Notes under the pieces: model-generated
What the model saw: the letters and a program-made list of their open reading frames with translations, nothing else
Database searches by the model: none
What the model was told of the DNA's origin: nothing
From: Pyrinomonadaceae bacterium
GTDB lineage: Bacteria > Acidobacteriota > Blastocatellia > Pyrinomonadales > Pyrinomonadaceae
Direction of reading: 5' to 3'
NCBI GenBank assembly: GCA_014380365.1
Contig: JACMJZ010000028.1
Location: 1-46,780 of the forward strand
Length of the DNA stretch: 46,780 bases
Program-made: the position numbers and the translations under genes
Shown: positions 1,319-12,365 of the stretch, one piece after another
How positions within the stretch are numbered: position 1 is the first letter of the stretch
Layout: every line of letters begins with the position of its first letter

Positions 1319-2842
1319 ATGATTACTGGCGAACTCAAGACAAAAGTTGATCGGCTGTGGGATGCGTTTTGGTCGGGTGGCATCAGCAATCCGCTCGAAG
1401 TCATTGAGCAGATCACTTACTTACTCTTTATCAAACGACTCGACGAGCTTCACACGGCGCAGGAGGCAAAGGCCAACCGCTTAAAGAAGCCGCTTGAAAA
1501 CGCAATCTTCAATCGCAAGCAGCAGGACTTACGCTGGTCGCGGTTCAAGCATGAAGCCCCGCCTGCCATGTACAAGATTGTCTCTGAGAAAGTCTTTCCT
1601 TTCATCAAGGAATTGAAGAGCGCGCGGGAAGATTCCACTTACTCGCACCATATGAGGGACGCGCGTTTCACCGTCCCAAACGCTGCTCTCCTCGCCAAGG
1701 TTGTCGACATGATCGACAACATCCCCATGGAGGAGCGGGACACCAAAGGCGATCTCTACGAGTACATGCTCAGCAAGATCGCGTCGGCGGGGCAAAACGG
1801 TCAGTTTCGCACGCCACGTCACATCATCCAGTTGATGGTTGAGATGGTCGCGCCAAATCCTGGCGACGTTATTTGCGATCCGGCGTGTGGCACGGCGGGC
1901 TTTTTGGTGGCCGCGGGTGAATATCTCCGGGAAAATCACAAGGAGATCTTCACTGACAACAAACTGCACCATCACTTTAACGAAAAGCTCTTCAATGGAT
2001 TTGATTTCGATTCGACCATGCTGCGCATTGGAAGCATGAACATGCTGCTGCACGGCGTCGAGAACCCAAACATTCGCTACAAAGATTCGCTTGCCGAAGA
2101 ACATGCCGGAGACGAAGAGCAGTACACACTCGTGCTTGCGAATCCGCCGTTTGCCGGTTCGCTGGATTACGAAAACACTGCCAAAGATCTCCAGCGCATC
2201 GTGAAGACGAAGAAGACTGAACTGCTCTTCCTCGCGCTCGTCCTGCGACTGCTCAAACCCGGCGGACGCGCCGCTGTCATCGTGCCTGACGGCGCGCTTT
2301 TCGGCTCATCCAACGCGCACAAGACACTGCGCAAGATGCTCGTGGATGAACAGAAACTCGACGCCGTGATTTCGATGCCCAGCGGCGTTTTCAAGCCTTA
2401 CGCTGGCGTCTCCACTGCCATCCTCCTTTTCACCAAAACCAATTCTGGTGGCACGGAGCACGTCTGGTTTTACGACGTGGACGCCGACGGCATGTCGCTC
2501 GACGACAAACGCACCGAACTCCTTCCAGCAGAAAAACTCGGGGCAGTTCCTAGGGTTGCCCTTACTGTAGACGAACATGTGAAGAACAATTTGCCCGATG
2601 TGCTGGCCCGTTGGAGGGAACGTGAGGGGAGTGAAGCCGAGCGCCCAAGAACGGCTCAATCATTCAGGATTCCGAAATCCGAAATCCAAAATCAAGGTTA
2701 TGACCTCTCGCTCAACCGCTACAAGGAAGTAGTCCATGAGGAAGTAGCTCATCGACCGCCGACCGAGATTTTGATTGCCCTGGGCCAACTAGAGGTAGAG
2801 ATTGAGCAGGGGATGAAAGAACTGGAGGGAATGCTGAAGTGA
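1319..2842 (+). CDS. hsdM: Type I restriction-modification system methyltransferase subunit HsdM
   Basis: 507 residues, the usual size for HsdM. The protein transfers a methyl group from S-adenosylmethionine to adenine N6 in the site read by HsdS. An N-terminal helical HsdM_N region (about 1-140) precedes the N6-methylase domain. The AdoMet-binding motif I is DPACGTAGF at D187 and the catalytic motif IV is NPPF at N275-F278. The C terminus (about 440-507) is the helical part that contacts HsdS. The stop overlaps the GTG start of hsdS by four bases, so the two are translationally coupled. This is the first gene of a five-gene operon. No strong Shine-Dalgarno sequence is visible before the ATG at 1319, but the N terminus (MITGELKTKVDRLWDAFW) is typical of the family. 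Confidence 0.96.
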   Translation: MITGELKTKVDRLWDAFWSGGISNPLEVIEQITYLLFIKRLDELHTAQEAKANRLKKPLENAIFNRKQQDLRWSRFKHEAPPAMYKIVSEKVFPFIKELKSAREDSTYSHHMRDARFTVPNAALLAKVVDMIDNIPMEERDTKGDLYEYMLSKIASAGQNGQFRTPRHIIQLMVEMVAPNPGDVICDPACGTAGFLVAAGEYLRENHKEIFTDNKLHHHFNEKLFNGFDFDSTMLRIGSMNMLLHGVENPNIRYKDSLAEEHAGDEEQYTLVLANPPFAGSLDYENTAKDLQRIVKTKKTELLFLALVLRLLKPGGRAAVIVPDGALFGSSNAHKTLRKMLVDEQKLDAVISMPSGVFKPYAGVSTAILLFTKTNSGGTEHVWFYDVDADGMSLDDKRTELLPAEKLGAVPRVALTVDEHVKNNLPDVLARWREREGSEAERPRTAQSFRIPKSEIQNQGYDLSLNRYKEVVHEEVAHRPPTEILIALGQLEVEIEQGMKELEGMLK

Positions 2843-4005
2843 AGTGGCCACTAAAACGGCTCGCTGACCTTGGTGCCATCTCGACTGGGTCGACACCCCG
2901 TACAACAGAGTCCCGCTTTTACGGGGGCGACCTCCCATTCGTGACTCCAGCAGAACTCGACACGGGTGTGCCAGTCATGAGCACGCCTCGAACCTTGACT
3001 GAGGAGGGGGCGGCAGAGGCGAGAGTGCTCCCGGAGGGGGCGGTAATGGTGTCTTGTATCGGTTCGCTGGGAAAGATTGGTATAGCCGGACGCTCGCTCG
3101 CGACCAACCAGCAAATCAACTCGGTTGTGTTCGAACGTGAAAAAATATGGCCAAAGTATGGCTTCTACGCCTGCCGCCTGCTGAAGCCAAAGCTAGATTG
3201 CATGGCTCCTGCAACGACGCTTCCGATCGTAAGCAAATCAAAGTTCGCAGAGTTAACGATCCCCTTACCGCCGCTGGCGGAGCAGCGCCGGATAGCGGAG
3301 GTGCTGGATCGGGCGGAGGCGTTGCGGGACAAGCGCAGCACCGTCCTCGCCCAGCTCGCCTCCCTCACCCAATCGCTCTTCCTCGACCTCTTCGGCGACC
3401 CGACCTACAACACAAAAAGATTTCCATCGAAGCCACTCTCATCGCTCGTTCGAGACGACGACACGATTAACTATGGTGTTGTCCAACCCGGTGATGACCA
3501 TGCAGAGGGTATCCCGCTGGTTCGGGTCGGCGATCTAATAGAGGGAAAGGTCAGACACGCAAACCTTAAGCGAATCGCCCCGTCAATTGAGGCAGCCTAT
3601 AAGCGTTCCCGGCTTCGAGGTGACGAGGTGCTCGTAAGCTGCGTCGGTTCAATTGGCGTCGTGGCTTTGGCAAGTGAGTCAGAGAAGGGGTTCAACATTG
3701 CACGAGCAATTGCTCGCATTCCGCTGACGGAAAATACGAATCGCGTTTTTCTATCAGCCTATCTCAACACCGACTTCGTTCAGCGCTATTTCACAAACGA
3801 GCTACGAACTGTGAGTCAGCCCACGCTTAACATCAAGCAGCTCTCCCAAACTTCTGTTGTACTTCCCCCCATAGAGTTGCAGCGGAAGTTCGCCCGCCGA
3901 GTCACAGTGGTTGAGAAGCTGAAGGCGGCGCATCGCGCGTCGCTGGCGGAGTTGGACGCCCTCTTCACAGCCCTCCAGCACCGCGCCTTTAAAGGAGAAC
4001 TTTGA
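2839..4005 (+). CDS. hsdS: Type I restriction-modification specificity subunit HsdS
   Basis: 388 residues with a GTG start overlapping the hsdM stop. HsdS reads the bipartite DNA target and holds HsdM and HsdR together. Two target-recognition domains are visible: about 1-140 (starts WPLKRLADLGAISTG) and about 200-340. Each is followed by a conserved helical region: LPPLAEQRRIAEVLDRAEAL at about 145, and LPPIELQRKFARRV at about 345. The two-fold internal layout and the length are standard for a complete HsdS. The recognition sequence cannot be read from the protein. One base separates its stop from the next gene. Confidence 0.95.
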   Translation: MKWPLKRLADLGAISTGSTPRTTESRFYGGDLPFVTPAELDTGVPVMSTPRTLTEEGAAEARVLPEGAVMVSCIGSLGKIGIAGRSLATNQQINSVVFEREKIWPKYGFYACRLLKPKLDCMAPATTLPIVSKSKFAELTIPLPPLAEQRRIAEVLDRAEALRDKRSTVLAQLASLTQSLFLDLFGDPTYNTKRFPSKPLSSLVRDDDTINYGVVQPGDDHAEGIPLVRVGDLIEGKVRHANLKRIAPSIEAAYKRSRLRGDEVLVSCVGSIGVVALASESEKGFNIARAIARIPLTENTNRVFLSAYLNTDFVQRYFTNELRTVSQPTLNIKQLSQTSVVLPPIELQRKFARRVTVVEKLKAAHRASLAELDALFTALQHRAFKGEL

Positions 4006-4006
4006 T

Positions 4007-4801
4007 ATGGCCGTCATTTCTCCTTTTCCAGAAGGACACGTCGAAGCCTTGGCAAAAGTGCTTGGCGACTGCGGTTCCGGCTCTGACATTTCTCGAGTTC
4101 TGCTTGATCGCGGTTTGTCAGACAACTCTGGTCAATCTACAAAGTGGCGGCGACTGTATTGGGTATTCCTTGATGCTCAAAGAAAGCATGGAGGTGCGAA
4201 TCGAATTCTCGATTTCATTAGATCGTTTCTGATCCCCGCTCGTTTTGTTGGTCGCAATGACGAGTTCGAAGCTCGTCGGCAACAACTCAACACAATTCTC
4301 GCCTTCTCCGGCCTTGAATACCAACCAGATGGAAGGTATCGCAAGTGCAGTGCTGCCCAGACCCTTGATGAAGCAGAAAAAAGAGTACGAACTATTCGGA
4401 TGAAGTTTCAAGGCAGACGCATTCATGCGGAGGTCTTGAAATACTGTCGGCCCGAACTCCTTCAAGACAACTATTTCCACGCCGTCTTCGAAGCCGCCAA
4501 GGGATTGGCTCAGCGAATACGAGATATGTCTGGAGTGCAGGCGGATGGGGCATCTCTTGTCGACAAGGTGTTCTCAATTGATCGGCCAGTTTTAGCGATT
4601 AATTCACTTCGTACCGAAACAGAAAAATCCGAGCACAAGGGATTTGCCTCACTGCTAAAAGGTTGTTTTGCGGCGGTGCGAAATCCACTGGCCCACGAAC
4701 CAAAGATTCTGTGGCACGGTGAAGACGACGCGGCAGATTATTTATCGCTCATCTCGCTTCTCCATAGAAAGCTAGACGAAAGTGTCCGGACGGGAAATTG
4801 A
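4007..4801 (+). CDS. TIGR02391/Ymh-family protein with HEPN-type Rx4H motif
   Basis: 264 residues. The C-terminal half (about 130-255) matches my recollection of the TIGR02391 (Hypoth_Ymh) family: an 'ILxxCxxEL...NYFHAVFEAAKGLAQRIR' type helix pair and a terminal 'RNPLAHEPK' segment. R225-N-P-L-A-H230 is the R-x4-H signature of HEPN superfamily RNases, so a ribonuclease role is plausible but inferred. The N-terminal ~75 residues (DISRVLLDRGL...KWRRLYWVFLDAQ) resemble the N-terminal domain seen in AbiJ-like abortive-infection proteins. The gene starts one base after hsdS and ends 13 bases before hsdR, so it is clearly part of the hsd operon. It holds the same slot (hsdM-hsdS-X-hsdR) as prrC, an unrelated-by-sequence HEPN anticodon nuclease of E. 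coli. It could instead be a non-catalytic accessory binding protein. Confidence 0.85.
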   Translation: MAVISPFPEGHVEALAKVLGDCGSGSDISRVLLDRGLSDNSGQSTKWRRLYWVFLDAQRKHGGANRILDFIRSFLIPARFVGRNDEFEARRQQLNTILAFSGLEYQPDGRYRKCSAAQTLDEAEKRVRTIRMKFQGRRIHAEVLKYCRPELLQDNYFHAVFEAAKGLAQRIRDMSGVQADGASLVDKVFSIDRPVLAINSLRTETEKSEHKGFASLLKGCFAAVRNPLAHEPKILWHGEDDAADYLSLISLLHRKLDESVRTGN

Positions 4802-4814
4802 GCAAGCATTTTAA

Positions 4815-7800
4815 ATGTCGAATTTTACTTTTCTTCAAACGGAATGGCCTGAGCTGCATCAGTCAGCTACGAAGGTTGAGTCCCTTGCGTGTACAGATGC
4901 GCGCGCGTGCTGCTTTTACGCTCGGCGCACGCTTGAGCTTGCCATCCATTGGCTGTACGAACACGACGCGGAGCTGAAGCGACCTTACGACGATAATCTC
5001 AGCGCGCTCATCTACGAACCAACCTTCAGAGACAACCTCACCAAGGATCTCTTCCTGAAGGTCAAAACGATCAAAGAAATCGGCAAATTGGCCGTTCACA
5101 GCCGAAAACCCATCACCGAACGAGACGCGCTGCGCGCCACTAAGGAACTGTTTCATTTTCTTTACTGGCTGGCACGCATGTATACGCAGCAATCTCCGGA
5201 GCAGTACAAGCACATTGCGTGGGATGAACAGAAGATCCCTGCGCGTCAGGTATCAATTTCAGCGACTACGCTCGATCAACTCAAAGCTGCCGAAGAACAA
5301 TTACGCGTACGCGATCGGGCGATTGCTAAACAAACGAAGGCTCAGGCCGACACGGATACGCAGATTGCTTTGTTGCGCGAACAAATCGCGGAAGCAAAGA
5401 AGCGCAACGAACTGATTCCCGACGACCACGATTATTCTGAAGCCGAAACTCGCGACTACTTCATCGATTTGCTTTTGCGGGAAGCCGGCTGGCCGCTCGA
5501 CAAAACCGAAGACCGCGAATACCCCGTTACGGGAATGCCGAATGAAGCGGGCGCGGGTTTTGTCGATTACGTTCTGTGGGGGAAAGATGGCTTGCCGCTC
5601 GCAGTTGTTGAGGCAAAACGCACCAAGAAAGATGCGCGCATTGGGCGACAACAAGCAAAGCTCTACGCCGATTGTCTCGAAACGCAATTCGAACAGCGCC
5701 CACTAATCTTTTACACCAATGGATACAACACGTGGTTCTGGGATGATCAGAACTATCCGCCGCGTGGAGTGGAGGGCTTTTACAAACGCGATGAGCTTGA
5801 ACTCCTGATCCAGAGGCGCAGCAAAAGGAAGGACCTGACAAAGGAAGGCGTAAACAAGGCAATCGTCGAAAGGTACTACCAGGAAGAATCGATCCGTGCA
5901 GTCACCGAACACTTCGCGAAGAAGCAGCGCAAGTCCCTTATTGTTATGGCCACCGGTGCGGGCAAGACGAGAACCGTCATCGCGCTGTGCGAGCTACTGC
6001 AAAGATGCAACTGGATAAAACGAGTTCTGTTCCTCGCCGACCGCGTGGCGCTCGTGCGCCAGGCTGCGAATGCTTTTAAGCAACATTTGCCCGATTCCAA
6101 CCCAGTGAATCTTGTAACTGAAAAATTCACTGACAGTCGCGTTTATCTATCGACCTACCCAACGATGATGGGACAAATCAATGAAGTCGAGGATGGCTTG
6201 CGGCGTTTTGGCGTGGGGCATTTCGACCTCCTGGTAATTGATGAAGCGCATCGATCGGTTTACCAAAAATATCGAGCGATATTTGAGTACTTCGACTCTT
6301 TGCTCGTGGGCCTAACGGCAACGCCGAAAGATGAAGTCGACAAGAATACCTACTCGTTGTTCGATCTGGAGAAAGGCGTGCCCACTTATTCCTACGACCT
6401 CGACCAGGCGGTATCAGATGGATTCCTGGTGCCGTACAAGCCGGTGGAGGTTCCGCTCAAGTTTGTTCGCGAAGGAATTAAGTACGACGACCTCACGGAC
6501 GAAGAAAAGGAAGAGTGGGACGCTATTGAATGGGACGAAGAAAAGGAAGACGTTCCCGAATCTGTTGATCCAGCAGCTTTGAATAAGTGGCTTTTCAATG
6601 CGGATACCGTAGACAAGGTGCTTGCGACACTGATGCAGCGCGGACAGAAGGTTGGCGGCGGAGACCTCTTAGGAAAGACTATTATCTTTGCCAAGAACCA
6701 CAAACACGCGATCTTTATTCAAGAGCGTTTCGATAAGAACTATCCGCATTACAAAGGAACCTTTGCGCGAGTGATAGACAGCCAGGAACCGTACGCACAA
6801 ACCCTTCTCGACGACCTTTCAACACCTAACAAGCCACTTCAAATTGCGGTTTCGGTAGACATGCTTGATACCGGGATCGACATTCCGGAATTAGTCAACC
6901 TGGTCTTTTTCAAGATTGTTCGTTCGAAGACAAAATTCTTTCAGATGATTGGGCGTGGTACTCGCTTGCGTCCGGATCTCTTTGGACCGGATATCGATAA
7001 AGAGTTCTTCTATATTTTCGACTACTGCGGAAATCTTGAGTTCTTCAATCAGGATGTGAAAGGCGTCGAAGGCTCAGCACAAGAATCTGTTAGCACCAAG
7101 ATCTTTAAGGCTCGCGTGGAGTTGCTTGAGAACTTTCGTAAAACCGGCGCGGTGACTGATGAAGCAATCGGCGAACTTGATGACGAAATCACGGCAACAC
7201 TGCGGCAGCAAATCCAGGCGATGAACACCGACAACTTCGTGGTTCGTGCTCACAGAAAAGAGGTTGAAAAATTTCGTGAGCCGGCAACCTGGGAAGAACT
7301 CGGACCTGATGAATTTGAGGAGCTCGATTTTGTTCTCGCCGGCTTACCAAACGAGTTAGACCCTGAGGATGAAACTGCGAAGCGATTTGACTTGCTCATT
7401 CTTAAGCTTCAACTGGCAGTGCTGACAAAGGAAGAATCGTTCATCAAACTTCGCGACAACGTGAAAGAGATAGCAAACCGCCTGGAAGAGAAGCGAACGA
7501 TTCCGATGGTTAGCGAACAGATGGAGTTGATTTGTGATTTACAGCAGGACGAATACTGGCCCGACATAACGCTGGCGATGCTCGAAGATATCCGCAAGCG
7601 ACTGCGCGATCTCGTGAAGTTCATTGATAAAAAACAGCGGAAGCTGATTTATACGGATTTTGAAGATGAACTGGGCGAGATTCGCGAGGTTAAATTCGGC
7701 ACAATCGGCTCGGCGGTAAACATCAAGCAATATCAAAAGAAAGTCATGCACTTTCTGAAGGAACATGAGAACCACATCGCAATTAATAAACTAAAGCGAA

Positions 7801-8192
7801 ATATTCCAATTACTCAGAGCGATGTCGAAGAGCTTGAGCGTATTCTGTTCGAATCTGACGGCATGGGAACCAGAGAAGATTTTGAGAAAGCCTATGGCAA
7901 GCAGGAGCATCTCGGTTTATTTGTCAGGACTCTCGTTGGTCTCAATCGAGAGGCAGCCAAAGAGGCATTCGGTCAGTACCTTTCTCAGAAGACTCTTAGG
8001 GCAAATCAAATTCGGTTTATTGATCAGATTATTGATTACCTTACTCAGAACGGTGTGATGGACCCGAGCCTACTCTATGAAGCGCCTTTTACAGACTACA
8101 ATAGCACAGGGCTTGATGGAGTGTTCGGGAACGACGACGCAACCGGGATTGTTTCCGTGCTCGATTCGATTAGAAGGGCAGCAGTGGCGTAG
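4815..8192 (+). CDS. hsdR: Type I restriction enzyme R subunit with N-terminal DUF4145 domain
   Basis: 1125 residues. HsdR translocates DNA with ATP and cleaves it. Residues 1-125 form a DUF4145-type helical domain (HEPN-like fold, but IGKLAVHS lacks the catalytic arginine), followed by a coiled coil at about 150-200. The PD-(D/E)XK nuclease has D251 and E266-A-K268. The SF2 motor has Walker A ATGAGKT with K384, the DEAH box D476-E-A-H479, the TATP segment near 497, and a helicase C region ending in QMIGRGTRLRPDLFG. The C-terminal third (about 850-1120) is the EcoEI-type HsdR C-terminal region that docks on the methylase. Architecture matches EcoEI-class HsdR. It has no frameshift and abuts the following gene with no spacer. 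Confidence 0.95.
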   Translation: MSNFTFLQTEWPELHQSATKVESLACTDARACCFYARRTLELAIHWLYEHDAELKRPYDDNLSALIYEPTFRDNLTKDLFLKVKTIKEIGKLAVHSRKPITERDALRATKELFHFLYWLARMYTQQSPEQYKHIAWDEQKIPARQVSISATTLDQLKAAEEQLRVRDRAIAKQTKAQADTDTQIALLREQIAEAKKRNELIPDDHDYSEAETRDYFIDLLLREAGWPLDKTEDREYPVTGMPNEAGAGFVDYVLWGKDGLPLAVVEAKRTKKDARIGRQQAKLYADCLETQFEQRPLIFYTNGYNTWFWDDQNYPPRGVEGFYKRDELELLIQRRSKRKDLTKEGVNKAIVERYYQEESIRAVTEHFAKKQRKSLIVMATGAGKTRTVIALCELLQRCNWIKRVLFLADRVALVRQAANAFKQHLPDSNPVNLVTEKFTDSRVYLSTYPTMMGQINEVEDGLRRFGVGHFDLLVIDEAHRSVYQKYRAIFEYFDSLLVGLTATPKDEVDKNTYSLFDLEKGVPTYSYDLDQAVSDGFLVPYKPVEVPLKFVREGIKYDDLTDEEKEEWDAIEWDEEKEDVPESVDPAALNKWLFNADTVDKVLATLMQRGQKVGGGDLLGKTIIFAKNHKHAIFIQERFDKNYPHYKGTFARVIDSQEPYAQTLLDDLSTPNKPLQIAVSVDMLDTGIDIPELVNLVFFKIVRSKTKFFQMIGRGTRLRPDLFGPDIDKEFFYIFDYCGNLEFFNQDVKGVEGSAQESVSTKIFKARVELLENFRKTGAVTDEAIGELDDEITATLRQQIQAMNTDNFVVRAHRKEVEKFREPATWEELGPDEFEELDFVLAGLPNELDPEDETAKRFDLLILKLQLAVLTKEESFIKLRDNVKEIANRLEEKRTIPMVSEQMELICDLQQDEYWPDITLAMLEDIRKRLRDLVKFIDKKQRKLIYTDFEDELGEIREVKFGTIGSAVNIKQYQKKVMHFLKEHENHIAINKLKRNIPITQSDVEELERILFESDGMGTREDFEKAYGKQEHLGLFVRTLVGLNREAAKEAFGQYLSQKTLRANQIRFIDQIIDYLTQNGVMDPSLLYEAPFTDYNSTGLDGVFGNDDATGIVSVLDSIRRAAVA

Positions 8193-9557
8193 ATGAGCGA
8201 CATCAAACTCTTTAGTCTTACCAGCGGCAAAGCGGCCGAGATGCGTGGCATGGCTTCTGATCTTGAGAAGCCGTTGCAAACGCTGATCGAGGGAAATCTC
8301 GAACCTTTGCTCGGCGTGCGATTCCTCGCGACTGAGTACTCAACGGGCAAGACTCACTCCGGTCGTATTGATACTCTGGGTCTCGACGAAAATAATTCGC
8401 CCGTGATCTTAGAATACAAGCGCTCATCCGGTGAGAACGTCATCAATCAAGGCCTTTTCTATCTTGATTGGTTGATGGATCACAAAGCGGAGTTCGAACA
8501 CCTCGTTCGCAAACAGATTGATACGACTGCCGCCGAAAGTGTCGAGTGGTCATCTCCACGGGTAATTTGCGTCGCTGCCAACTTCACCAAATATGATGAG
8601 CATGCGGTTCAGCAGATAAGCCGCAACATTGAACTAATAAGGTATCGCCAATTTGGATCCGAATTCTTGCTACTCGAACTAGTTAACTCAGGCGCCGGAA
8701 AACCTGCAAGCACTACCAAGCCAATAAAGGCTACTGCAAAAACAGAGACTGCATACGGAATTTCTGCCTTGGCGACGGCAAATCAAGAAACCCGGGATTT
8801 GTTTTCTTCCTTGGAAGGATTCGTCCTATCTCTTGGCGACGACGTGCAGCGTAAAGACCTGAAGCTCTATACGGCATTTAAGCGAATCAGAAACTTTGTA
8901 ACTGTCGAGTTTTATAAGGACAAGGTTCTCTTGCACGTTTCGCTTAACCCTGACGATGTGGAACTCGTGGAGGGGTTCACACGCGACGTCAGAACAATTG
9001 GTCACTGGGGAACCGGCGACCTGGAGGTGTGGGTGAGAAACAGTTTCGATCTTGAGCGCGCAAAGCCCTTAATTCAGCAAGCGTTTGATGGCGGACAAGT
9101 GCGCGCGGAGGGGGAGTGGACGGAAGAAGCTGTTCTGCAAACGATTGAAGAAAAGCGCGGGCTCGATGAGGCAAATACCGCTAAACAGTTGATTGAGTGG
9201 TCAAAGACGCACGCACAAAAAATCAACTGGGGTAAAGGGTCAAACGATGGTTCGTTCTGTCCGGTCTTTGAGTTGGGGGACGAATATCCGTTTATTCCTT
9301 TCCGAGTGTACACATATGGAAGCGTTGAGATTCTCTTCAACCGTATGTCGGTCAGGCAGAATGCTCCCTTCGACGCTCCTGAGAAGCGGTTAGAACTCCT
9401 GCGCCAGTTGAACGAGATTCCCGGAATTAATCTATCGACCGATGGAATCAACCGACGCCCTAGCATTCCTCTTGGACTTCTCGTTAATCCCCAGGCATTG
9501 GGAAAATTTATTGAAATTGTTCAGTCGGTGGTCAAAGAAGTGAAAAAGAACTCTTAA
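8193..9557 (+). CDS. PD-(D/E)XK nuclease-like protein with DUF5655 domain
   Basis: 454 residues. The ATG is the very next base after the hsdR stop, so it is co-translated with the restriction operon. Residues about 15-170 form a restriction-like nuclease fold: D60 in GRIDTLGLDE and E74-Y-K76 in VILEYKRSSG are the expected metal-binding D-ExK residues. Residues about 210-305 match a DUF5655 domain (KDLKLYTAFKRIRNFVTVEF...LHVSLNP...GTGDLEVWVRN). The last ~140 residues form a further domain with a conserved-looking FCPVFEL...FIPFRVYTYGS stretch that I cannot name. Proteins of this kind occur as solitary predicted nucleases; here the fixed linkage suggests a role with the type I enzyme, which is inference. 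Confidence 0.88.
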   Translation: MSDIKLFSLTSGKAAEMRGMASDLEKPLQTLIEGNLEPLLGVRFLATEYSTGKTHSGRIDTLGLDENNSPVILEYKRSSGENVINQGLFYLDWLMDHKAEFEHLVRKQIDTTAAESVEWSSPRVICVAANFTKYDEHAVQQISRNIELIRYRQFGSEFLLLELVNSGAGKPASTTKPIKATAKTETAYGISALATANQETRDLFSSLEGFVLSLGDDVQRKDLKLYTAFKRIRNFVTVEFYKDKVLLHVSLNPDDVELVEGFTRDVRTIGHWGTGDLEVWVRNSFDLERAKPLIQQAFDGGQVRAEGEWTEEAVLQTIEEKRGLDEANTAKQLIEWSKTHAQKINWGKGSNDGSFCPVFELGDEYPFIPFRVYTYGSVEILFNRMSVRQNAPFDAPEKRLELLRQLNEIPGINLSTDGINRRPSIPLGLLVNPQALGKFIEIVQSVVKEVKKNS

Positions 9558-9584
9558 TCTCTTCTTGCGTAAGCAGTGAGAATG

Positions 9585-9630
9585 AGCAGTCAGCAATCAG
9601 ACGTCAGCTATCAGCAATCAGCAAACGCTT
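9585..9630. repeat. Low-complexity tract, left arm (CAGCAATCAG words)
   Basis: Imperfect repeats of CAGCAATCAG/CAGTCAGCAATCAG. The complement of the same words occurs at 10434-10500, so the two tracts are inverted arms around the truncated gene and the first composite palindrome. Confidence 0.7.
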
Positions 9631-10116
9631 TTAGTTATCTTCGGTTGATTCGTCAGAAGCCAAACTGGAGTATTCGAATTCCAAGTCAGAGAATGGTTCT
9701 GAATCAAAGACCGGTTCTGGATCGAAGAATGGATCAAGTTCAAGTGTCTCGCCGCGGGCAAGGCGTTGTTGGCGTTCTTCCCACTTGCGATTGCACTCCT
9801 TATTAAACTCCTCCCGACGAAGGTTTTCCGCTTCCCACTCCTCTCGTGTGCGGTAGGACGAGAAAGCAAAATCGTCATCCATGTTACAGCCGTCGAGGTG
9901 CCAAAAACCCACTCCCATACCAAGAGGTGTTGTCTCATCGCCGAACATCTGGCAGACCGGACAATCCTCATCAATGATCATGTCTCGTGGACGAAGCGCG
10001 ATTGGCATCCGTTTGCGTTCATTGTCGAGGAGGATGGAGGGGTTGCGGCCGTCGTAATCGGGCTGAGGTTGTTCGAGCCAGGTGGACTTGAGTTCTTCGA
10101 GTTGCGCGATGAGGGT
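9631..10116 (-). pseudogene. 5'-truncated gene with CPVCQ and WHLDGCNMDDDF motifs
   Basis: An ATG-initiated frame covers 9631-10008 (125 residues). Protein-like sequence continues in the same frame upstream of that ATG to a TGA at 10117-10119: LEELKSTWLEQPQPDYDGR, then NPSILLDNERKR. That extension has no start codon. The visible part has a CPVCQ cysteine pair and FWHLDGCNMDDDF, then an acidic, charged tail. I recall unnamed proteins with this ending ('...NERRR...D.DCPCCQ...WHLDGCNMDDDFAF') in Acidobacteriota, where more protein precedes it. The simplest reading is that the front of the gene was lost, with the repeat region beginning right at the break. The 125-residue form could still be translated from 10008. 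Confidence 0.6.
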
Positions 10117-10194
10117 TCACTTAAATGCTCGTTGTGCCAGTGATTGCAAACCAGGAGTAAATTCGGAGTGAAACAAGACACCAGGCATTTCATG

Positions 10195-10425
10195 GATTGA
10201 TCCCATGCAGTAGGAAAGGAACGCCGACCCGTCGAGGGTCGGCGAATTGTTTTTGGGGGCGACGAAACCCGGGGCGTTGCCCCGGGCTATCACACGCACC
10301 CCACGCGGGCTGCCCGCGTGGGGACCCCGCTTATTGCGCGGCTACGCCGCTTCGACTCGACGCGCTGCGCGCGCGAAATGAAGAAGCAGGCAGGATGCCC
10401 GCGCTCCCAGCGAACAATAGTCTTT
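10195..10425. repeat. Composite palindromic repeat, copy 1
   Basis: The element begins with a 9-bp stem (CGCCGACCC at 10222-10230, GGGTCGGCG at 10236-10244), then AATTGT. A GC-rich stem CCCGGGGC/GCCCCGGG follows near 10270-10290, then further CGCG-rich palindromes to about 10420. The same order of parts is seen at 11158 and 12547. It contains no gene and is typical of dispersed extragenic repeats. Confidence 0.75.
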
Positions 10426-10433
10426 AGCAGAAG

Positions 10434-10500
10434 GCAAAAGGCGTTTACAGTTCACCTGTGTGCTGACTGCTGATTGCTGACTGCTGATTACTGATTGCAG
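10434..10500. repeat. Low-complexity tract, right arm (TGCTGATTGCTGA words)
   Basis: Repeats of TGCTGACTGCTGATT, the reverse complement of the tract at 9585-9630. Both arms also carry an AAACGC-TTTT / AAAA-GGCGTTT block, so the inverted relationship extends beyond the simple words. Confidence 0.7.
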
Positions 10501-10589
10501 ATGCCGCGATGGAGGGTAGCTGATGAAACTAATATCTGCATTACAAGATTCCACACGAGAACGAATCACCAGAGCTTTCGGCAAAGAAG

Positions 10590-11027
10590 CTATTCGCTCA
10601 AGGCAATGATTTCTTTTTTCAGAAAGTACAGGCTGTGGCCTTTGCTGATTTCCGGTAGCTCTCCGAAGATTTGATAGCCGAGTCCTTCATAAAAAGGAAG
10701 CGCCTGGAAGCTGGCGGTTTCCAGGTACATCAGCGGGTGACCGTGCTCGACGCCATAATTCTCGACTGCGCTCATTAAGTTTGCACCATGACCCTGGCCT
10801 CTGTGGTTCTCATCAACCCACAGCACATCGACGTGCGTGGATCGGCCCCAGAGCATTCCCTGCACGCCGCCGATAATTCGCCGCTGTTCGTCGCGAAGAA
10901 AGTATGCCACCGTGCGCGGACCTTCATTGCCGGTTCTGTCGCGATTAAAACTGCGAACACCATCGAGAAGCAGACGAGAATCTTCGGCGGTGGGAGGCTC
11001 GACTAGTTCGAGTGTCGGGTTGGGCAT
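10590..11027 (-). CDS. GNAT-family N-acetyltransferase
   Basis: 145 residues from the ATG at 11027. An in-frame ATG 30 bases upstream lies inside low-complexity sequence and is unlikely to be used. GNAT proteins move an acetyl group from acetyl-CoA to an amine. The core is clear: strand VAYFLRD...IIGGVQGMLWG (about 45-68), strand VDVLWVDENHRGQGHGANLM with the acetyl-CoA loop RGQGHG, then YLETASFQALPFYEGLGYQIFGE, the classic C-terminal GNAT ending. The substrate cannot be told. The gene stands alone between repeats, with no obvious Shine-Dalgarno sequence. Size is normal for the family. Confidence 0.9.
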   Translation of the reverse strand: MPNPTLELVEPPTAEDSRLLLDGVRSFNRDRTGNEGPRTVAYFLRDEQRRIIGGVQGMLWGRSTHVDVLWVDENHRGQGHGANLMSAVENYGVEHGHPLMYLETASFQALPFYEGLGYQIFGELPEISKGHSLYFLKKEIIALSE

Positions 11028-11040
11028 GGCGGGGAAAGAG

Positions 11041-11140
11041 TAGACAGTAAACAGCAAACAGTAAACAGCAGAAGGGCAGTGGGCAGTGGGAGAAGACAGG
11101 AGACAGAAGACAGGAGACAGAGAACAGAAAACAGGAGCAA
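11041..11140. repeat. Purine-rich low-complexity tract (ACAGTAAACAGC / GACAGGAGACAGA)
   Basis: Two kinds of short tandem-like words follow each other, AACAGTAAACAGC and then AGAAGACAGGAGACAG. The tract immediately precedes the second composite palindrome. It is not coding. Confidence 0.7.
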
Positions 11141-11155
11141 GGAGTTAATGGCAAG

Positions 11156-11325
11156 AACGCCGACCCATCGAGGGTCGGCGAATTGTGCATTGGAGGCTTG
11201 TTACCCGGGCGTTGGCACGGGCTATTGCATTACGCGCCTTCGGCGCTTTCAGAAGTGGCACGGGCGTCCCGCCCGTGGAATCACGCGCAAGATGCGCGTG
11301 CCACAATCGAACCGACCCGCGCCGT
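11156..11325. repeat. Composite palindromic repeat, copy 2
   Basis: Same leading stem as copy 1 (CGCCGACCC at 11158-11166, loop ATCGA, GGGTCGGCG at 11172-11180) and the same AATTGT. Then come a CCCGGGC/CACGGGCTATT block, ACGCGCCTTCGGCGCTTT and a GCGCGTG-rich tail. It ends just before the stop of the cyanophycinase-like gene, so it may form the 3' end of that transcript. Confidence 0.75.
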
Positions 11326-11330
11326 TTATT

Positions 11331-12365
11331 TCAATAAATGTTGCCGCCGGCTTGGGTTGAAGTGAGCGCGCCGGCGTTTACGTTTAGCGTGTAGGCCACT
11401 CCCCCGGTGCCGCTCCAGGTTGAGAAGTTGAAGGTGCCGCCTTGTGGGACTTTGTACACGCCGACATTGAAATAGCTGAGTGGAGTTCCGGGAGAGAGCA
11501 CCTGCGCCGGCCCGGGCGCCTGGAGGAAGTAAGCCGCGCCTGTTCCCACCATCGTGCTCGCGCCGTTCGGGGTTACCAGGATTGCCGTCCGTTCGTCTAC
11601 TCCGATGCCGCGAGGTTGCGACGCCCAACCGTTGCCGACGATACGCGCGAGAAACGCGAGCGACCGCCCCATGCGATCGCGCGTCACAAAATGTGAATCG
11701 TAGATTTTGTTTATCCCCAACGCCGATTGAAACAGGTCCCGGTCGAGCGTGACGTAGCGATGGAAGGGATCAGCCAGAGCCTGGCTCGACGTCACCGAGC
11801 CGGCCGCTCCGGTGTAAATGAACTGGCTGAGGACCGCGAGGCCTGCGCTCGTCCCGCCCACCGGTGCGCCCTTGGAATTGAGCAGATAGTTCACGCCAGA
11901 TTGCACGGCAGTTCCTCGCCAGAGGTTCATGTAAGTTGACTGGTCGCCACCCGCGATCCAGAGAGCCTCGGCGTTTTGTATGTGGCTACTGACGTACGAT
12001 GAGTTTGCGCCCGCCACAGTGGTGATAATGATGGTCTCCACCGAATCCATCTGCGGACACAGTTGCTGGATGTAAGGGTTGTAAGCGTCGGTCCCGGTGG
12101 TGCGGATAACTACGAAGTCGCCGCCCCCCGCACGCTGGCACATCCATTGAAACGCGGCATCCACGTCTGTGCCTCCGCCCATCAGCGCCAGTCCGGGAGT
12201 CAGGTTTGGAGATTGGGGAACATCAGCAGCATTACCGACAATGTACGCCTTGTATCCCGGCTTCGGGGCAGCGGAAAGCGGCAACGCAAGTACGGATAGG
12301 GCGGCGAAGGCGAGAGCCAGGGTGAGCAACAATCGCAGAGAAGCTGTAACGTGGACAATGAGCAT
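11331..12365 (-). CDS. Exported cyanophycinase-like (S51) peptidase
   Basis: 344 residues. GAGGAGG lies upstream of the ATG, a strong ribosome binding site. Residues 1-33 form a signal peptide. The rest fits the cyanophycinase/S51 serine peptidase fold: YIVGNAADV, a GGG-TDVDAAF segment, a Rossmann-like ALWIAGGDQSTYMNLW and the nucleophile elbow G171-T-S173-A-G175, with S173 the likely catalytic serine. Known members degrade the storage polymer cyanophycin or cleave at aspartate; the substrate here is unknown. The export signal argues for a role outside the cytoplasm, as in the secreted CphE group. The C-terminal 80 residues are a beta-rich extension (GTGAAYFLQAPG...TFNFSTWSG). It is not in an operon. 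Confidence 0.85.
   Translation of the reverse strand: MLIVHVTASLRLLLTLALAFAALSVLALPLSAAPKPGYKAYIVGNAADVPQSPNLTPGLALMGGGTDVDAAFQWMCQRAGGGDFVVIRTTGTDAYNPYIQQLCPQMDSVETIIITTVAGANSSYVSSHIQNAEALWIAGGDQSTYMNLWRGTAVQSGVNYLLNSKGAPVGGTSAGLAVLSQFIYTGAAGSVTSSQALADPFHRYVTLDRDLFQSALGINKIYDSHFVTRDRMGRSLAFLARIVGNGWASQPRGIGVDERTAILVTPNGASTMVGTGAAYFLQAPGPAQVLSPGTPLSYFNVGVYKVPQGGTFNFSTWSGTGGVAYTLNVNAGALTSTQAGGNIY

Follow-up and report, generated by a model that had tools for sequence, protein, structure and literature searches.

A Ymh-family HEPN-type protein in a type I restriction operon looks like a portable back-up defence

In the prr locus of Escherichia coli, prrC lies between hsdS and hsdR, and the restriction enzyme of the locus is of type IC. 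By the published classification PrrC carries a HEPN-type domain, which is joined to an N-terminal ABC ATPase. A passage of one review (PMC12707154) describes PrrC, together with PARIS, as a guardian. The Ymh proteins appear in a 2013 paper as an active-type HEPN family 'in operon with R-M', with RNase action predicted, and its passages on such families propose a control like that of PrrC, in which R-M subunits restrain the HEPN RNases linked to them until the subunits themselves are neutralised (Anantharaman 2013, PMC3710099). Other accessory defences have been placed in type I operons: DarTG2 of EPEC, described in its locus report as an ADP-ribosyl toxin-antitoxin pair (PMC12255303), and TgvAB of the V. 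cholerae island VPI-2, described as a modification-dependent nuclease that protects without HsdR activity (PMC11411939); both resemble the locus treated here in their setting and differ from it in not being HEPN proteins. A third comparison is with PD-lambda-3, the subject of an original paper (PMC9519451) and used in a later study, in the part concerned, as an abortive-infection control in which infected cells were lysed and a second round was blocked (PMC13190303).

We analysed a 46,780-nucleotide stretch (the window; positions 1 to 46,780 of contig JACMJZ010000028.1, forward strand) from a Pyrinomonadaceae bacterium, in which a gene of the Ymh family occupies the position that prrC holds in prr. 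The features to which we refer are as follows.

1319-2842, plus strand: hsdM, a type I modification subunit of 507 aa (Pfam N6_Mtase and HsdM_N; PADLOC MTase_I, E 5.9e-196)
2839-4005, plus strand: hsdS, a specificity subunit of 388 aa with two stretches matching Pfam Methylase_S, its start overlapping the hsdM stop
4007-4801, plus strand: ymh, a PD-Lambda-3_B-like gene of 264 aa with an ATG start (PF09509, TIGR02391, PADLOC PD-Lambda-3_B)
4007-4360, plus strand: Ymh N-terminal domain, residues 1-118, a six-helix, death-fold-like bundle in the AlphaFold2 model
4415-4774, plus strand: Hypoth_Ymh (HEPN) domain, residues 137-256 (Pfam)
4679-4696, plus strand: codons of R225-x4-H230, the predicted RNase site
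4815-8192, plus strand: hsdR, a restriction subunit of 1125 aa (Pfam HSDR_N, ResIII, EcoEI_R_C and an N-terminal DUF4145)
8193-9557, plus strand: a PDC-S18 defence candidate of 454 aa (PADLOC PDC-S18, E 1.9e-141; Pfam DUF5655 and a weak NucS_C)

The initial annotation, made from the letters of the sequence, had read the frame at 4007-4801 as gene X of an hsdM-hsdS-X-hsdR operon, set off from its two neighbours by 1 and 13 bases. Coordinates and Pfam neighbours agree with this, the hsdS stop (4005) and the ymh start (4007) lying 1 base apart and the ymh stop (4801) and the hsdR start (4815) 13 bases apart. HsdM, HsdS and HsdR are present in this single unit, which identifies it by Pfam and PADLOC as a type I restriction-modification system. 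The GC content is 0.48-0.51 across ymh, hsdR and the next gene (window positions 4001-10000) and 0.55-0.57 immediately outside, with hsdM and hsdS falling in the high-GC part. The PDC-S18-like gene begins at the hsdR stop without a spacer and may be one more passenger of the operon; its DUF5655 domain is also found at the C-terminus of a GmrSD protein that another locus (L029) encodes between hsdS and hsdR.

The assignment of X to TIGR02391/Ymh held up well. Pfam PF09509 (Hypoth_Ymh) matches residues 137-256 with E 1.1e-44 (151.5 bits against a cut-off of 25), and TIGR02391 scores 117.3 bits against a cut-off of 39.45. The R-x4-H motif consists of R at residue 225 and H at residue 230. Among 75 aligned proteins the R is conserved in 73 and the H in 72, the deviants being L032, whose frame is apparently broken, and L071 and L072, which are truncated at the motif; both residues are kept in 76 of the 77 rows of a second set that omits the latter two. 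The initial annotation had named loss of the R and H across homologues as an argument against its own reading, and we found the opposite.

For the fold itself, a structural comparison had been suggested, and we made it with an AlphaFold2 model of the full-length protein (mean pLDDT 87.0, pTM 0.56, lowest around the motif loop). Residues 127-262 matched HEPN-type structures with Z scores of 6-7, which are barely above those of unrelated helical proteins and which, by the tool's own caveat, may between helical bundles reflect merely a shared arrangement. The matches were to the Roquin ROQ domain (Z 7.1), TT1696 (6.6) and the HEPN homologue ST0689 (6.2), of which we take the ROQ domain and TT1696 to be HEPN folds. 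Foldseek returned no match at E 0.001 for either the full model or a separate model of the N-terminal domain, and no solved structure was related to Ymh by sequence at E 1. Judged from its sequence, the C-terminal domain is of HEPN type with a conserved R-x4-H, at which an RNase site is predicted.

The window protein is like PrrC in its HEPN-type domain and in its place between hsdS and hsdR. It differs in having no ABC ATPase, Hypoth_Ymh being its sole Pfam match, in keeping with the initial description of X as unrelated-looking to PrrC. The partner enzymes differ as well. The window HsdR carries EcoEI_R_C and gave no match to the EcoR124I HsdR at E 0.001, and the window HsdM is closer to EcoKI M (6.8e-34) than to EcoR124II M (9e-18); on these grounds, and by the generally known limits of the type I subtypes, the partner enzyme does not look type IC, as the prr enzyme is. 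The likeness to prr that had been drawn at the outset stands for gene order and probably does not extend to the type of enzyme.

Another way to view the protein is as a relative of the B component of PD-lambda-3. The PADLOC profile PD-Lambda-3_B matches residues 1-261 of 264 with E 7.6e-79 and is matched by all 64 members of alignment A1, and a homologue with 47% identity on the E. coli plasmid p22Q34-1 follows a PD-Lambda-3_A gene in a defence island with BREX and Hachiman genes. The window protein is likewise a full-length B-type protein, and differs from the E. coli version in its type I operon, in belonging to another clade of the family and in that its PD-Lambda-3_A partner was not found: PADLOC detected none among five window proteins, tblastn none in the first 14 kb, and a search of the window's genome none, the controls being equally silent in that last search. 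Across 82 loci PD-Lambda-3_A is present in two (L075, which is the E. coli locus itself, and L047), so most Ymh copies do without it. PD-Lambda-3_A has no Pfam domain. A role for it as a shared antitoxin was rejected, given its presence in just those two loci and a negative profile comparison between A and the Ymh N-terminal domain. One review, in its entry for the system, places PD-lambda-3 under PD(D/E)XK nucleases and not under HEPN, which fits poorly with a HEPN-only view of PD-lambda-3. Given how seldom A accompanies Ymh, PD-lambda-3 may also work differently from the window protein.

The pairing of B with A in E. coli raises the thought that Ymh needs the product of a gene that we have not recognised as its partner, whether a gene elsewhere or, for instance, the PDC-S18-like one (8193-9557). 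That a defence candidate lies directly behind hsdR, with no spacer, would suit such gating by a partner. The rarity of PD-Lambda-3_A speaks against it, as does the fact that no gene besides hsd was seen recurring next to Ymh across the clade, and we hold it to be highly unlikely.

We collected relatives by a pattern scan of genome contigs starting from the window protein, which gave 73 loci from bacteria and archaea, a sample skewed to near relatives, and mapped hsd genes by profiles made from these loci. In a tree of 77 proteins, built by a quick method with SH-aLRT as the support measure, the window Ymh falls inside a clade of 47 rows with SH-aLRT 100 on a stem of 1.09 changes per column. 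We counted as a neighbour any HsdM, HsdS or HsdR that scored at least 80 bits and lay within 5 kb on the same strand. By this rule hsd genes accompany Ymh in 37 of 48 clade members, and at least two kinds of them in 32, compared with 2 of 34 Ymh proteins outside the clade; L056 among the 48, and four loci among the 34 that were assigned by identity, stand outside the tree. Eleven clade members fail the rule, five of them on contigs too short for 5 kb on both sides and six with both flanks available. Within the window's phylum TIGR02391 occurs in 23 of 297 genomes, the window's included; among 23 matches besides the window, examined with such flanks as the contigs allow, two adjoin same-strand hsd genes, namely L104, which is a clade member, and L113, a HEPN-only match after an R-M-S set. 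With only 2 of 23 phylum matches beside hsd genes, the type I tie is a property of the clade and not of the Ymh family. A count of genomic contexts had been proposed as a check, and in this form it comes out strongly for the clade and not for the family as a whole; the clade-specific tie to type I operons is real and beyond chance.

This clade-specific position is a point in favour of the scheme in which the Hsd complex binds and silences Ymh until phage anti-restriction proteins release it and RNA is cut, as is the publication of a model of this kind for R-M-linked HEPN domains. The arrangement of the genes bears on the same scheme in both directions. In layout A, comprising the window and 16 other clade loci, Ymh follows hsdS, with another gene between in L028 and L031, and in 11 of the 17 loci the distance from hsdS to Ymh lies between -1 and 2 bases. 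In layout B, comprising 20 loci (some of them partial, and L022 placed on weak grounds), Ymh follows hsdM, directly or past another gene, and precedes hsdS; Ymh overlaps HsdM by 4 bases in 9 of the 20 loci and HsdS by 4 bases in 10 of the 20. Spacing of this tightness after hsdS in the one layout and after hsdM in the other would tie the output of Ymh to that of the Hsd subunits, a point for silencing by the Hsd complex. Between 12 layout-A and 7 layout-B loci, however, mean identity is 23% for HsdM and 21% for HsdR compared with 70% for Ymh. We conclude that two type I families unrelated to each other have taken up Ymh proteins of one kind, which counts against such silencing.

Distances between Ymh proteins and between their HsdM partners correlate with r 0.84 in layout A, falling to 0.50 after three near-copies are dropped, and with 0.37 (p 0.07) in layout B. 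With three layout labels, 18 changes were counted on the whole tree, with few starred branches, and only one is forced in the domain trees. In locus L008 a single open reading frame (10001-11647) comprises Ymh and the part of HsdS past the first recognition domain (profile positions 167-406). A joint of this kind speaks for silencing by the Hsd complex, but with the first recognition domain missing it could be either a real half-subunit fusion or the product of a deletion or an assembly error. In L002 an open reading frame runs through hsdS and ymh, but a fusion was rejected: by eye the usual hsdS end is still there in a different frame, with its stop immediately ahead of the ymh start, and we take the case to be a broken frame.

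Residues 25-110 of the window HsdR form a DUF4145 domain, which belongs to the HEPN clan. The same domain is present in the HsdR of L015, of L029 and of L144, an operon that has no Ymh, and gave no match at E 0.001 in the layout-B HsdRs of L010 and L012. Docking of Ymh on HsdR from HEPN to HEPN was consequently rejected as a general rule, and the absence from these layout-B proteins of a domain seen in layout A is a further point against silencing by the Hsd complex.

We then considered whether type I operons of the window's kind carry Ymh regularly. A close HsdM is present in 13 of 396 genomes of the phylum, the window's included. In six of the 12 others the HsdM is window-like and the sequence can be read as far as hsdR (L104, L141, L142, L143, L144 and L149, no HsdS being recognised in L143), and Ymh is present in one of these six operons (L104). 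The hsdS-hsdR interval is empty in L142 and L144, and holds a gene of the SLFN AlbA_2 cluster in L149. L145-L147, whose HsdM is more distant, have no Ymh, and L139, L140 and L148, which allowed no judgement, stand outside the count. Ten other genes inside the operons of Ymh loci were examined, and Pfam recognises six of them (GmrSD twice, Macro, DarT, RhuM and SLFN AlbA_2). The places of four are as follows.

L006, 8943-10001: RhuM
L013, 12210-12854: DarT
L003, 12895-13953: Macro
L019, 2546-4777: GmrSD_N

The slots of these operons thus accept assorted defence genes, as is the case for DarTG2 and TgvAB. Free variation of the other slot genes, together with the fact that Ymh shares a transcription unit with hsdS and hsdR and lies between them, might be taken to mean that Ymh tunes hsdR expression or is inactive and kept by linkage alone. 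Retention of the catalytic-type residues in all but one row, conservation over the full length with PD-Lambda-3_B, and the existence of two layouts, by which Ymh is not tied to hsdR, run counter to this, and of the explanations considered here we give it the least credit.

Some clade copies lie away from hsd genes. In six of them (L017, L027, L033, L035, L040 and L046) both flanks are available and neither holds an hsd gene within 5 kb. A genome-wide search for HsdS (PF01420) in the genomes of 11 clade members labelled 'other' found none in five (L033, L035, L040, L044 and L046), the same search giving matches in 9 of 14 control genomes, and in those five genomes N6_Mtase had no strong match (best 1.2e-15, in L046). 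Four clade members (L033, L035, L040 and L046) therefore have neither an hsd gene within 5 kb nor an HsdS domain detected anywhere in the genome; the HsdS-less genomes are mostly draft MAGs, L040 being Thalassospira sp. HJ, whose title does not name it a MAG. In the Dehalococcoidia MAGs L033 and L035 a common clade Ymh stands on the strand opposite to large genes; in L033 two of these encode an SNF2/NO VEIN helicase and a BTAD-domain protein of 1041 aa. That HsdS-less genomes carry clade Ymh proteins argues that a cell can tolerate Ymh without restraint by Hsd, and the hsd-free members together with the presence of Ymh in one of six operons argue against obligate silencing by Hsd. Of the PrrC-like proposal made initially, the HEPN-type domain, the R-x4-H motif and the clade-specific tie to type I operons stand, whereas silencing by the restriction enzyme is weakened; with the lack of an ABC ATPase in the window protein also counting against it, we consider release from an Hsd complex rather unlikely.

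The N-terminal domain of Ymh (residues 1-118), modelled alone with AlphaFold2, gave a mean pLDDT of 95.1 and a pTM of 0.88. The top VIA-align match was 8srz, a bacterial death-like domain of Lysobacter enzymogenes (Z 6.2 over 79 residues, rmsd 3.0), a Z that may mean a common arrangement only. Judged by title and by the known folds of the proteins, 29 of the best 30 VIA-align rows are death, CARD, PYD or DED domains, the exception being 7kdw; with Foldseek, 9 of the best 10 rows are death folds, at a best E of only 0.37. The bacterial death-like domains and CARDs 8srz, 8ss1 and 9cs7 match the modelled domain with Z 6.2, 5.4 and 5.5 over 79-80 residues and have no sequence match to it; a sequence search for its solved relatives gave only two poor matches, even at E 5. 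To our knowledge the known bacterial death-like domains occur in gasdermin and NLR-like systems and not on HEPN proteins. An identification with AbiJ_NTD3 is doubtful, 2 of 64 members being matched (best E 7.7e-5) and a direct comparison with an AbiJ_NTD3 protein being negative.

Within the R-M-linked set identity is 58-63% for the N-terminal domain and 77-79% for the C-terminal domain, the former evolving faster. Pairs within layout A, within layout B and between the two show N-terminal identities of 0.58, 0.63 and 0.585; there is no layout signal in this domain, a further point against its being fitted to a particular Hsd partner, and single columns gave nothing clean. The models suggest that the N-terminal domain is death-fold-like and that Ymh is an adaptor-effector protein.

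The reading that we prefer, to which we assign a probability of 0.58, is that X is a portable, normally silent abortive-infection RNase of the PD-Lambda-3_B/Ymh type, accessory to a type I operon and co-expressed with it. It is supported by the kept R and H, the full-length PD-Lambda-3_B match and the description of PD-lambda-3 as an abortive-infection system, the two host families, the optional presence, the other defence genes that fill the same slots, the resemblance of the two modelled parts to HEPN and death-fold structures and the hsd-free copies. It is weakened by the preference of the clade for type I operons, by the tight spacing and by the layout-A correlation of 0.84 (0.50 after thinning), which could mean dependence on Hsd, and also by the rarity of PD-Lambda-3_A, the listing of PD-lambda-3 under PD(D/E)XK nucleases, the negative Foldseek searches at E 0.001 and the draft state of most HsdS-less genomes. 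Under this reading restriction would be the first line of defence and Ymh the second. On infection, the death-fold-like N-terminal domain would sense a trigger or assemble with itself or a partner, the HEPN domains would then pair and cut RNA, and the infected cell would die or halt ahead of phage spread. Silence in the uninfected cell would come mainly from Ymh itself and not from obligate binding to HsdMSR.

A bolder version of this reading, which we put forward as speculation and consider doubtful, would see in Ymh a death-fold adaptor and a HEPN RNase combined in one protein. Infection would bring the death folds together, as happens in the CARD systems of animals and bacteria, so that the HEPN domains pair and suicidal RNA cutting begins. 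One clade would then have specialised as the second line of bacterial and archaeal type I operons, and would respond to a signal that unrelated type I enzymes share (their inhibition, for example, or ongoing restriction) instead of to one particular Hsd subunit.

The window protein is a member, by PF09509, of the Ymh HEPN family of the 2013 paper, whose passages on that family name paraMORC, AbiJ-NTD and AbiTii as fusions, and not the death-fold-like N-terminal domain or the clade described here (PMC3710099). The idea of a guard role for R-M-linked Ymh proteins is thus already in print, and the kind of finding was foreseen while its detail is new: the clade, its two host families and a death-fold-like domain on Ymh were not found in the papers searched, a set that did not include bioRxiv. 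Taken as a whole, Ymh looks like a back-up defence of a portable kind, for which restraint by the restriction enzyme would not be a necessity. Its natural copies, in two unrelated type I families and free of hsd genes, provide a testable case for distinguishing a wired guard from an independent passenger. If the N-terminal death fold is true, it would link the cell-death logic of CARD and death domains to a HEPN RNase and to restriction.
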